Shown: positions 30,309 to 34,458 of the stretch, in pieces
Numbering within the stretch: the first letter of the stretch is position 1
Layout of the letters: each line of letters begins with the position of its first letter
Assembly (NCBI GenBank): GCA_003248125.1
Contig: QJXZ01000316.1
Span: forward strand, 1-34,458
Source: Gammaproteobacteria bacterium
Lineage (GTDB): Bacteria > Pseudomonadota > Gammaproteobacteria > Pseudomonadales > Azotimanducaceae
Direction of reading: 5' to 3'
DNA: 34,458 nt
Translations under genes and position numbers: made by a program
The notes under the pieces: model-generated
What the model saw: only the letters and a program-made list of their open reading frames with translations
Database searches by the model: none
What the model was told of the DNA's origin: nothing

Positions 30309-31784
30309 TCATTTGAGCAGCGAACCCAAGATTCCCCGTACGAACTTCCTGCCAAGCGAGCTCCCCACCGCACGCGCCGCGCTCTTCAACATCGCCTCGC
30401 CGATCCCCTGACGATTGCTGCGGCGAGCCGGCGCAGCCTCACGCGCTTCTTGCTTTGCACGAGCCTCGGCTTCGGCCGCTGCACGTTCGTCCATGGCGCG
30501 CTGCTCCGCGCGCTGCATCAGCTTCTCGTATGCCGACTCGCGATCGACAGTCTCATCGTATCGACCCGCCACAGGTGATCGCCCCATGATGTCCAACCGC
30601 TCAGCGCCATCGAGCGGGCCGATGCGTGATTCCGGCGGCCGAATCAGCGTGCGCGCAACCGGTGTCGGCGCACCCTTGGCGTCCAGCGTCGACACCAACG
30701 CTTCGCCCCTTTCCAGTTCCGTCAGCACCGTCTCCACGTCGAGATCGGGATTGGCGCGGAAGCTTTCGGCTACGGCCTTGATCACCTTGCGGTCTTTCGG
30801 CGTGAACGCTCGCAACGCGTGCTCGATCTTGAGGCCCAGCTGCCCCAACACGTCGTCCGGCAGATCGAGCGGGCTCTGCGTCACGAAATAGACGCCGACG
30901 CCCTTCGAGCGGATCAATCGCACCACCTGCTCGATCTTGTCGAGCAACGATTTCGGCGCGCCTTCGAAGAGCAAATGTGCCTCGTCGAAGAACAACACCA
31001 GCTTCGGCTTTGGTGCGTCCCCGACTTCCGGTAGGTCTTCGAACAGTTCGGAAAGTAGCCACAACAGGAACGCGGCATAGACGCGAGGCGCCTCACGCAG
31101 CAAACGCGTCGCATCGAGCAGACTGACCACCCCGAGCCCGGAAAAGTCGGTACGCATGAAGTCGCGCAGATCGAGCGCTGGCTCACCAAAGAATCGGTCG
31201 GCGCCCTGCTCTTCGAGCACCAGCAACGCACGCTGGATCGCGCCAATCGACGCACTGGAGATGTTGCCGTACTCGCCGCGCAAATCCTTCGCGTTGTCGT
31301 TCATCCACGTGAGCAGCGAACGGAGATCCTTGAGGTCCAACAGCAGCAGGCCTTGATCGTCGGCGATCTTGAAGGCAGCGAAGAGAATGCCCGATTGGGT
31401 ATCGTTGAGCTCGAGCAGGTTGGTCAAGATCAAGGGGCCAACTTCCGAGATGGTCGTGCGCACCGGATGGCCTTGCGCGCCGTAGATGTCCCAAAACATC
31501 GTCGGCAAGCCGCGTTGCGCGTAGTCGGGAATCGAAATCAGCGAGAGCCGCCGGTCGATCTCTTTGTGCGGTTTGCCGGCGGTTGCAATGCCCGACAGGT
31601 CGCCCTTCACGTCCACCGCGAACACGGGAACGCCAGCGCGAGCAAAGCCTTCTGCCAAGATCTGGAGCGTCACGGTCTTTCCCGTACCGGTGGCGCCCGC
31701 CACAAGCCCGTGCCGGTTGCTCATCGCAAGCGCTTGCGTGACGAGGGAACCTGCTGCCCCGCCGATCAGCACCGAATCGGTCAT
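30309..31784 (-). CDS. HerA-like ATPase, DUF853 family
   Basis: A 491-residue P-loop ATPase of the DUF853 (YjgR) group, related to the HerA/FtsK DNA translocases. Walker A GATGTGKT (30-37), PVFAVDVKGDLSGIA, MFWDIYGAQGHPVRTT, and Walker B KLVLFFDEAHLLF, followed by the arginine region IRSKGVGVYFVTQSPLDLPDDVLGQLG. The tail (about 400-491) is charged, with EQRAMDERAAAEAEARAKQE, then a basic stretch. The physiological role is unknown; DNA translocation is inferred from the family. Its start is 66 bases from the tRNA promoter on the other strand. It ends just beside the REP doublet. Confidence 0.92.
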   Translation of the reverse strand: MTDSVLIGGAAGSLVTQALAMSNRHGLVAGATGTGKTVTLQILAEGFARAGVPVFAVDVKGDLSGIATAGKPHKEIDRRLSLISIPDYAQRGLPTMFWDIYGAQGHPVRTTISEVGPLILTNLLELNDTQSGILFAAFKIADDQGLLLLDLKDLRSLLTWMNDNAKDLRGEYGNISSASIGAIQRALLVLEEQGADRFFGEPALDLRDFMRTDFSGLGVVSLLDATRLLREAPRVYAAFLLWLLSELFEDLPEVGDAPKPKLVLFFDEAHLLFEGAPKSLLDKIEQVVRLIRSKGVGVYFVTQSPLDLPDDVLGQLGLKIEHALRAFTPKDRKVIKAVAESFRANPDLDVETVLTELERGEALVSTLDAKGAPTPVARTLIRPPESRIGPLDGAERLDIMGRSPVAGRYDETVDRESAYEKLMQRAEQRAMDERAAAEAEARAKQEAREAAPARRSNRQGIGEAMLKSAARAVGSSLGRKFVRGILGSLLK

Positions 31785-31939: not shown

Positions 31940-32015
<76 letters not shown>

Positions 32016-32024
32016 TCCATGTAA

Positions 32025-32294
32025 TCAACGACTTACGTCAGCTCGAAAACCAGCGGTTTTCCAATATTCGGGCGATCTTCCAATATATTCAGCGGACGCC
32101 TTTGCGGTCTGAAGCAAAGCCGCCTTGCGCGCGGCAGAATCACTTAGTGACGAAACGTAGGCCTCGATGTCATCACGGACGCCATTATCGTTGACGTCAG
32201 GACCGTCGATGTCGGTCGATCGATCTAACACGGGAATCTGCCCCGAACCTTCTAGACTCGATAGTGCTGTCGCGACGCTTACCATTGGGCTCAA
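32025..32294 (-). pseudogene. Truncated gene with a calcium-loop-like D-x-N-D-N-G motif
   Basis: About 89 residues in an open frame from a doubtful TTG at 32294. The segment PVLDRSTDIDGPDVNDNGVR then DDIEAYV has the D-x-N-D-N-G-x-x-D-D pattern of calcium-binding (thrombospondin-3-like) loops and of a family of secreted hypothetical proteins that I recall with longer sequences. No signal peptide or ribosome site is seen upstream, an in-frame TGA lies near 32330, and the frame ends nine bases from the tRNA-Phe 3' end. I read it as a gene fragment cut at both ends; it could still be a short functional protein. Confidence 0.5.
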
Positions 32295-32363
32295 AGGTAT
32301 GTAGGTCGACGGTTCACACGCGGCGTCCGGTCATCTTGACGCGCTGAAACATGCCACTCGCAA

Positions 32364-32392
32364 GCACTATCGGGTGAAACCCGAGAAAGTGC
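32364..32392. other. Stem-loop in the gap between the gene fragment and the first small membrane protein gene
   Basis: GCACT/AGTGC (32364-32368, 32388-32392) and CGGGT/ACCCG (32371-32375, 32379-32383) form an interrupted hairpin with a GAA loop. The stretch 32295-32459 has no convincing gene apart from this hairpin and the 16-base direct repeat at 32408. There is no U-run, so it is not an ordinary terminator. Confidence 0.45.
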
Positions 32393-32407
32393 GTCCGCTC
32401 CGCTGAA

Positions 32408-32423
32408 CCTCCGGTGTGGATTG
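32408..32423. repeat. 16-base direct repeat, copy A
   Basis: CCTCCGGTGTGGATTG, identical to 32997-33012. It lies 36 bases beyond the stop of the small membrane protein gene 32460-32954. Confidence 0.75.
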
Positions 32424-32459
32424 GGAAAGCGTAGAACGGGGCGCAGCATGAGGGAATGG

Positions 32460-32954
32460 TCAGGCGCCGTGCGGGACCGTTGGATCTCGAAGTTCAACTC
32501 CCGCGAGGACATTATCGATGTAGCGGACCATGTCAGGGTGTGCGATGGGTTTCAGCGCCTCGTAAAACAGGCTCCCCCAACTACCTCGTCCGTATGAGCC
32601 AGCAATCGAATGATCGAAACCATGGCGCTCGATTACCGAGAGTTCGTCCACTGCCGGAATGATCTGCGCCCGATATTCCCAGAACGCGTTCGAAAGCCAT
32701 AGCGCTCTCAGCGCTTCTTGGTGCGTGAGTCCAGCCCGTTCCAGGATGGCCACAACAAATGGATGCTCTCCGAGCTCGAATGCATCATCCATCTTGGCAC
32801 GAATTCCAGTCATGCCCGGTTCGCCGCTCCACTCAAACAACTGGCGAAGTGCCTCGCCACGCCCTTGCCTCAAGACGCGCCGGGTCTCCTGCCGCGCATG
32901 GCGAACCTGAACGGCCAGATAACCGAGCGTCACGAACACCGCAACCGCGCCCAT
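32460..32954 (-). CDS. Small membrane-anchored protein, paralogue 1 (N-terminus frameshifted)
   Basis: From ATG 32954 the protein has 164 residues: a membrane helix at once (MGAVAVFVTLGYLAVQVRHA), then a soluble helical part with RQLFEWSGEPGMTGIR, FVVAILERAGLTHQEALRALW, FWEYRAQIIPAVDELS and ALKPIAHPDMVRYIDNVL. The same plan is seen in the two following genes. Upstream, an ATG with a good GGAGGGG ribosome site encodes MNWEALG in another frame, and the frame of the gene encodes AIGET just before Met 1; together they make the expected family start, so one base appears to be lost in a GGGG run near 32970. Function unknown; the family is of short uncharacterised inner-membrane proteins. Confidence 0.65.
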   Translation of the reverse strand: MGAVAVFVTLGYLAVQVRHARQETRRVLRQGRGEALRQLFEWSGEPGMTGIRAKMDDAFELGEHPFVVAILERAGLTHQEALRALWLSNAFWEYRAQIIPAVDELSVIERHGFDHSIAGSYGRGSWGSLFYEALKPIAHPDMVRYIDNVLAGVELRDPTVPHGA

Positions 32955-32996
32955 AGTCTCTCCAATCGCCCCAGTGCTTCCCAGTTCATCGCATCC

Positions 32997-33012
32997 CCTC
33001 CGGTGTGGATTG
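32997..33012. repeat. 16-base direct repeat, copy B
   Basis: CCTCCGGTGTGGATTG. On the minus strand it reads CAATCCACACCGGAGG, whose end GGAGG is the ribosome site for paralogue 1. The identical copy A lies 589 bases away on the other side of the gene. Confidence 0.75.
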
Positions 33013-33032
33013 CTGGCGTCAACTCCATCACA

Positions 33033-33515
33033 TTACGCGGCACTTTCGGCCCTGCTTGACCATGCCTCGACGTATCGAACGAAAGCGTCCGGATACACCT
33101 TCACTCCAAATTCACGCCACCATGACATCTGAGTTTGGCTTGTCACCATAATCTGCATGTGCGCCTCGTCGCGCGTCGCATACTCGCCCGCCGCATGAAC
33201 TTCGCGCTGTACCCACTCAGAGTACGTTAGTGCCCAGCTGCCAGAACAGTGTGCGCCTAGGCGACCCTCTTCCTCTTCGGTCAGAGGCGCGCCGGACGCC
33301 ACTTTTAGCTGGATGGGCTCAATGTAGGGTGAATCGCGTACGCTAATGAACCAAGCGATGCGCTCTGATCTATTCGCCTGTACGGCGGCGAACTGTGCAA
33401 CTTTGCGCGACTCGCGTACCTGCACAGACAAATACACCAATGTGGCCAAGACGCCGATTGACCCTAGGAAGTCTCCAATATCTCCAAGAACCTGGACTAT
33501 CTCAGCGGCAGACAT
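33033..33515 (-). CDS. Small membrane-anchored protein, paralogue 2
   Basis: A 160-residue protein with the complete family plan: IVQVLGDIGDFLGSIGVLA then TLVYLSVQVRESRK (a membrane helix about 12-30 ending in a basic Q-x-R turn), followed by a helical soluble domain with FAAVQANRSERIAWF, SYIEPIQ-like DSPYIEPIQLKV, LTEEEEGRLGAHC, YSEWVQREV and WWREFGVKVYPDAFVRYVEAW. ATG 33515 has GGGAG at a good distance. The helix and the Q-V-R ending match the other two copies; the rest is divergent. Function unknown. Topology should place the soluble part in the cytoplasm if the basic side is inside, but this is inference. Confidence 0.75.
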   Translation of the reverse strand: MSAAEIVQVLGDIGDFLGSIGVLATLVYLSVQVRESRKVAQFAAVQANRSERIAWFISVRDSPYIEPIQLKVASGAPLTEEEEGRLGAHCSGSWALTYSEWVQREVHAAGEYATRDEAHMQIMVTSQTQMSWWREFGVKVYPDAFVRYVEAWSSRAESAA

Positions 33516-33737
33516 GTGGATCTCCCGAAATTACGCAAGCATATCTTCGGGGAGTTGCGCCATCATCACCACTCCTTGGCCTCCCGTGGACTGTCCCATC
33601 GCGTGTGGACCGATGTCCGCTCGCGACCCGAAGCAGGCAACGAATGTGGCTTCAACCCGCCTAGGCCATCCGTATCTGCACCGCGACCAATGCGATAGCC
33701 TTGTCGTAGTTACGGAGGGATGAGAGGCGGAGCTGCT
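33516..33737. other. Divergent intergenic region between paralogues 2 and 3
   Basis: No gene is supported here. The piece 33607-33645 (GATGTCCGCT followed by CCGAAGCAG) recalls widespread intergenic repeats in other proteobacteria that are often mis-translated, but only one copy is present in the window. Promoters for both flanking genes must lie here; I see no strong -35/-10 pair. Confidence 0.4.
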
Positions 33738-34259
33738 ATGAGCCTTAGCGAACTCGGAAATCTGGGCGAGTTCTTGGCGTCGATCGGCGTACTTGTTTCT
33801 CTCGTCTTCGTTGGCTTTCAGATGAAGCAGAATGCGAAGGCGACTCGTGCCAGCGTTAGGCAATCGATCTTTGACTCAAGCCTCAGCTGGCACAACGCGC
33901 AGATCGATCCTAAGACCCTTGCAGTGGCTCAGTTCAAGCTGGATTCGGACATAGAGATCGATGACTTCGAGGCGCATCAGATAGATCGCCTTCAACAGAT
34001 GAATCTCCGGGCGTTTGAAAGCCGACACTACCAGTACATGCACGGCCTAATCGACCAGGAAACATGGGCACGATCGACCGCGATCATTTGGGGTACGTTT
34101 AACGGGCCGGTGCCTGCTAGAAACGCCATCGTGAGGCGTGTGTGGAATCGGACACGCCGAAGCATGCATAGGGATTTCGTTGCAGTAGTAGAGAGTTTGA
34201 TCCGCATCTCACCCGAGGAGGCGGACCAACTTTGGGCGTCGCCGAAGCCGGAAGAATGA
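33738..34259 (+). CDS. Small membrane-anchored protein, paralogue 3
   Basis: A 173-residue protein on the opposite strand to its two relatives. LGNLGEFLASIGVLVSLVFV then GFQMKQNAKATRAS gives the same membrane helix and basic turn; then FDSSLSWHNAQIDPKTLAVA, MNLRAFESRHYQYMHGLID, ETWARSTAIIWGTF and HRDFVAVVESLIRISPEEAD. The pattern Q-N-A-K-A-T-R-A-S, followed by F-E-x-x-x-Y-Q-Y-x-x-G-L-I-D, is typical of a common family of short uncharacterised membrane proteins. I chose ATG 33738 with GGAG five bases before; ATG 33720 has its GGAGGG touching the start and is less likely. Confidence 0.75.
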   Translation: MSLSELGNLGEFLASIGVLVSLVFVGFQMKQNAKATRASVRQSIFDSSLSWHNAQIDPKTLAVAQFKLDSDIEIDDFEAHQIDRLQQMNLRAFESRHYQYMHGLIDQETWARSTAIIWGTFNGPVPARNAIVRRVWNRTRRSMHRDFVAVVESLIRISPEEADQLWASPKPEE

Positions 34260-34263
34260 CCAA

Positions 34264-34458
34264 TTGTGGCCGAAACCAGTAGCGAAGGAGAGGAAGAATG
34301 CCGGAGTCGATTTCTTTCTGTACCACCGACGGCTGCGGATAGGCTGGGACAGAGTCAGAGCAGCGACCACACCCCCTGGGCGCATCGGTCGGCAGAACGC
34401 CTTTACCGAAGCGGCTTATGAAATGGATGGAAAGAAGATGTCACTCTACAAGTGGGCT
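34264..34458 (+). other. Open frame running off the window end, unidentified
   Basis: A frame is open from a TTG at 34264 to the last base, encoding about 65 residues that end ...MDGKKMSLYKWA. No domain is recognised and no start is secure. A second frame holds a 14-codon ORF (ATG 34298) with a good ribosome site. It may be the beginning of another gene of the island. Confidence 0.25.

Follow-up and report, generated by a model that had tools for sequence, protein, structure and literature searches.

Does the group of small genes at the end of this bacterial contig, directly downstream of a tRNA-Phe gene, represent a genomic island, and what kind of protein do these genes encode? The window, that is, the whole stretch of DNA that was analysed, is the complete contig C258 (34,458 nt) from a draft assembly of 4.24 Mb and 383 contigs, and the contig ends at position 34458. 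A preliminary description had proposed that three neighbouring genes after the tRNA, on both strands, encode related small membrane proteins and belong to an acquired region in which one gene type has multiplied. The features of this region are the following, with genes A and B on the − strand and gene C on the + strand, in agreement with that description.

31940..32015, + strand: tRNA-Phe (GAA), called by ARAGORN and matched by the Rfam tRNA model with 73.6 bits.
32408..32423, − strand: orphan copy of a leader/RBS repeat (CAATCCACACCGGAGG on the − strand), after which no family gene follows; on contigs C15 and C383 this repeat stands in front of A-type genes.
32460..32954, − strand: family gene A, a 164 aa open frame from an internal ATG (ORF call, profile match, AlphaFold).
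32997..33012, − strand: leader/RBS repeat (CAATCCACACCGGAGG on the − strand) just ahead of gene A's conserved start (repeat comparison with paralogues).
33033..33515, − strand: family gene B, 160 aa, intact (ORF call).
33738..34259, + strand: family gene C, 173 aa, intact (ORF call, AlphaFold).

We find that the three proteins are indeed related, although the N-terminal helix motif by which they had been grouped is matched exactly only in B (GDIGDFLGSIGVLATLVY) and C (GNLGEFLASIGVLVSLVF) and loosely in A (GETMGAVAVFVTLGY). The similarity of B to C (BLASTP 8e-10, 0 of 500 shuffles) and of A to B (BLASTP 3e-5, 0 of 500 shuffles) is above chance, and that of A to C is weaker (BLASTP 0.002, 9 of 500 shuffles). 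These pairwise alignments are restricted to the N-terminal part, covering the first 22–75 residues. A family profile of 177 positions was built from 76 members, with B and C included and A left out, and gene A matches this profile at positions 6–154 with an E value of 4e-25. Since this match was obtained with a profile built without A, the soluble domains are homologous too, and judged by sequence A, B and C are one family, homologous over their full length. The predicted structures point in the same direction, with related rather than unrelated soluble domains. The AlphaFold model of C is a confident helix bundle (pLDDT 94.8, pTM 0.81), in which a long helix (residues 3–55) is predicted to start in the membrane and run into the cytoplasm, followed by five more main helices; the model of A (pLDDT 75) has the same order of helices plus one short extra helix. 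The closest relative of gene B, in genome G015, has 47% identity over query positions 6–149, and relatives of gene C in genome G008 cover positions 1–155.

Gene A is frameshifted at its N-terminus compared to its paralogues, such that translation from the conserved start at 32989 reaches a stop after 19 codons, while the reading frame is kept in the paralogues on C15 and C383 that have the same leader; gene A is thus possibly a pseudogene. Because the leader copy at 32408–32423 has no family gene behind it, a tandem neighbour has probably been lost, and the orphan leader is probably its remnant. The 16-base repeat at 32408 and 32997 was also considered as an attC site or the end of an insertion element, and was ruled out as either, being the leader/RBS of tandem A-type genes. 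Two other ORFs lie on either side of the tRNA. An 89 aa ORF with a TTG start directly after it (32025–32294, − strand) carries a DxNxNGVRDDI motif, gives no family hits and resembles what is left of the C-terminal end of a gene for a secreted protein or lipoprotein. Upstream of it, at 30309–31784 on the − strand, is a HerA-like ATPase (PF05872, E 1e-214) with a close homologue in 8 of the 40 relatives searched.

If a genomic island targeted to tRNA-Phe had brought in the three genes as one unit, their position would be explained: the genes begin ∼450 bases past the tRNA 3′ end, and the GC content falls, as had been described, from 0.632 in positions 1–31900 of the window to 0.565 after the tRNA. 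However, the low GC content is not specific to this spot, as family members across the genome have a GC content of 0.576 compared to 0.614 for neighbouring ORFs, making it a trait of the family. Moreover, a duplicated tRNA-Phe end, which would have marked the far side of an island, was not found; the 3′ 26 bases of the tRNA occur once in the draft genome at up to 3 mismatches. There is no integrase in the 2.4 kb between the tRNA and the contig end. Other family copies show no evident enrichment of tRNAs in their surroundings, where ∼245 kb contain 3 tRNAs, a density close to that of typical bacterial genomes. The eight relatives with a homologue of the HerA-like gene have no tRNA in the flanks examined and are uninformative about an island. 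With a unique tRNA 3′ end, no integrase in reach, no enrichment of tRNAs and a low GC content that is family-wide, the island is not needed to explain the locus. As the main explanation we reject it, given the single tRNA 3′ end and the lack of evident tRNA enrichment near copies, and we consider it very improbable; the tRNA at the boundary is probably incidental.

The proposal that one gene type has multiplied holds on a scale that is not visible in the window. Searching this genome with the 76-member profile yielded 79 matches, corresponding to ∼73 distinct genes or fragments on 38 contigs, and many of these matches are fragments. The copies are clustered: 42 of the ∼73 lie within 2.5 kb of another, compared to ∼6 expected by chance. 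Related genomes have from 0 to 28 copies, while the same count gives at least 63 for this genome, and a survey of the phylum found the family in 14 of 397 genomes; the expansion is therefore lineage-specific. Near-duplicate family genes occur on different contigs (C84/C261 and C239/C363, with 93% and 99% protein identity). Because the estimated contamination of the draft genome is 4.55% and such pairs lie on separate contigs, a few of the copies may be strain variants.

Members were also found in metagenome-assembled genomes (MAGs) of Gemmatimonadota, Myxococcota, Deltaproteobacteria, Bacteroidetes and Acidimicrobiales, a distribution over distant phyla that fits horizontal spread, bearing in mind that errors in the binning of MAGs are possible. 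One such locus, a 3.9 kb contig (L175) of the Flavobacteriales MAG NORP294, holds five tandem family genes and no detected attC site of the types tested, and is possibly a misbinned contig. No family member was detected in plasmids, phages or IMG/VR viral contigs at the sensitivity used.

The notion of an acquired region survives in a different form, in that the genes are mobile as integron cassettes in related genomes, while an island targeted to tRNA-Phe is not supported. In G008 (contig C142, JAJFKA010000052.1), family members are separated by attC sites, which are imperfect inverted repeats with GCATAAC/GTTATGC ends and inner complementary arms. A covariance model made from these sites detected more of them in the G008 array and also in loci L093 and L099, with attC sites separating members in L099; overall, 10 of the 18 inter-attC intervals in the G008 array contain a family gene. 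For attC searching, a simple pattern scan proved too strict, and a relaxed scan recovered further arrays. The loci L117, L146 and L163 have arrays of four or five members with a different attC sequence type. The 79 named loci gave 29 attC hits, every one on the same strand as the family gene; most are in the G008 array (L128) and the others are spread over eight further loci. In L091, L099, L117, L146, L163 and L157, a family gene is flanked by attC sites that share its orientation. In a Haliea sp. MAG (L149), a broken integron integrase adjoins an array whose first genes are family members.

Integron components are also present in this genome. A complete integron integrase (486 bits) lies at the end of contig C95 (L107), downstream of a glmS-like gene, with attI and the first cassettes beyond the contig. 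A short attC array with family members is on another contig, C125. In all, the attC searches of this genome detected no more than 4 sites, which lie on 2 contigs and not in the window, and thus most of its own copies, including those in the window, are outside recognisable cassettes today. Genes A, B and C have no attC flank with the models R1 or R2, although they may have a degenerate site of some other type. The family is therefore cassette-borne in relatives from several marine gammaproteobacterial lineages and partly in this genome. These arrays resemble sedentary chromosomal integron arrays (superintegrons) in that members in related genomes are mostly found one per cassette between attC sites and in the orientation of those sites. 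They differ in that a single protein family fills more than half of the inter-attC intervals of one array, and in that the copies of this genome, the window's included, are mostly outside detectable arrays.

Clustering the ORFs around the copies revealed no constant partner gene, the top clusters being common enzyme families, although some cassette companions recur in 6–8 loci. A second type of small membrane protein, of ∼120 aa with several hydrophobic segments, is present in 8 family-carrying loci, including L100, L117, L134, L146, L159 and L163. Another cassette membrane protein is common to arrays of different lineages (L067:6644-7171, L091:6207-6758, L125, L127, L128 and L152, of which L091 and L128 are the same array).

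Public profile libraries leave the family essentially unannotated. The window proteins have no credible match in Pfam, NCBIfam, PADLOC or PHROGs, and for the wider member set no family in these libraries fits convincingly; in PADLOC-DB, the window proteins have no match and there are isolated weak hits among the 76 members. Two marginal matches were set aside: Prok-E2_A, which matched one window protein only, with a score below the cut-off (E 0.003), and a designed protein (E 0.009), the sole match in a profile search of PDB sequences. Fold searches of the PDB and the viral BFVD found nothing significant (best Foldseek E against the PDB 0.9; VIA-align Z at most 6.3), and we do not claim a new fold from this result.

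The nearest, though distant, relative on sequence grounds appears to be DUF6082 (PF19560), a Pfam family of unknown function. One cassette-borne member from this genome (L067:8456-8926) aligns to positions 7–126 of the 163 in its profile, covering the helix and reaching into the bundle (E 1.7e-4), and 9 of the 76 members and 3 of 97 match weakly. However, the best match seen in detail scores 21.6 bits compared to a curated cut-off of 26.7, and the window proteins have no match at all; because the best member falls below the cut-off, we do not claim membership in DUF6082. DUF4760 (PF15956) is weakly matched by far fewer members (5 of 76, best E 0.001), and the window proteins have no hit. Our search of the open-access literature found nothing on DUF6082 and a single passing mention of DUF4760.

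Conservation within the family is concentrated in the membrane helix. Mean pairwise identity is 51% in residues 9–32, which comprise this helix, but 16% in the bundle, and similar values (52% in the helix versus 15% in the soluble part) are obtained from a set assembled without use of the helix motif. The conserved helix residues G7, E11, G14, V18, L22, L25 and Q28 fall on one face (helical moment p 0.013), and E11, an acidic residue inside the helix, is conserved in >90% of members. The segment before the helix carries a net charge of −1 and the one after it +1.3, a distribution that, under the positive-inside rule, would place the bundle in the cytoplasm. We thus infer a single-pass inner-membrane protein with a short N-terminus outside and, according to the models, a cytoplasmic helix bundle. 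The conserved positions of the bundle are mainly aromatic residues, glycine and proline with a few charged residues, and form no evident catalytic pattern.

The difference between helix and bundle (∼52% versus 16% identity), the single conserved face and the lack of a catalytic pattern in the bundle suggest a shared membrane interaction combined with variable cytoplasmic specificity. In such a mechanism, the conserved face of the helix would pack either against the same face in other copies or against a single membrane partner shared by all, the divergent bundles would bind different clients, and each paralogue would be one specificity variant of a repertoire that may owe its spread to integrons, to local duplication and to scattering afterwards. 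That we are dealing with a large, essentially undescribed, expanded and cassette-mobile protein family we hold with high confidence; the mechanism as a whole we hold much lower, and we give about even chances to the family and the mechanism taken together as an explanation. Against this explanation count the lack of a recurrent partner gene and of a convincing match to a defence-family profile. It is also weakened by the lack of detected members on plasmids, phages or viral contigs at the sensitivity used, by the small number of attC sites detected in this genome, by the purifying selection in close pairs described below and by the chance that some near-identical pairs in this draft are strain variants.

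Conserved helix features could also be expected if the proteins were sensor or regulator subunits, in which the bundle would act through the shared helix to control a conserved partner in the membrane, and the various copies would tune envelope or stress physiology. The single conserved face with its acidic E11 and conserved Q28 agrees with such a role, as does a soluble part that has no conserved catalytic pattern, but no partner gene recurs beside the copies, and a range from 0 to ∼70 copies among relatives would be odd for a core regulator. We therefore regard regulatory subunits as possible but doubtful.

The selection acting on the copies bears on two further explanations. In close pairs, dN/dS is ∼0.04–0.4, well below 1 in every case, and the family genes are therefore constrained. 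This result argues against the genes being selfish or near-neutral cassette cargo, multiplied by integrons and local duplication with little benefit to the host, as does the conservation of the helix across distant phyla. The many fragments, the tandem A-type copies with repeated leaders, and the frameshifted copy and orphan leader in the window are what such cargo might leave behind, but on balance we think this explanation unlikely. The selection seen in close pairs is purifying and not diversifying, so that an arms race finds no support in it.

Purifying selection in close pairs also weighs against an orphan immunity or anti-phage repertoire, in which each protein would have its own toxin or phage component to neutralise at the membrane, and copies would be collected as they are in acquired-immunity arrays. 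Similarly unfavourable are the lack of a convincing match to PADLOC models and the fact that the membrane helix is the most conserved part, a pattern more suggestive of one shared partner than of variable targets alone. Consistent with such a repertoire, the many divergent single-gene copies have no fixed partner, are clustered on both strands, move as cassettes and have expanded patchily; furthermore, defence genes are overrepresented in integrons according to a published survey (PMC7370490). We consider this repertoire, and more generally a defence or immunity-type role, plausible but less likely than not. In its most specific form, the family would be a membrane receptor repertoire supplied by integrons, in which a conserved helix with a common partner carries diverging cytoplasmic recognition bundles, with dozens of copies per cell exchanged as single-gene cassettes and used in bacterial recognition or immunity, a proposal that is rather improbable as it stands.

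About two thirds of integron genes have no known function (PMC7370490), and a sizeable share of cassettes encodes exported or membrane proteins (PMC10963911). The products of most integron cassettes have no known function, and here a single family that public profile libraries have missed takes up more than half of the intervals in one marine array. The family is now defined by a profile, has a candidate interface and comes as single-gene cassettes, which makes its function testable.
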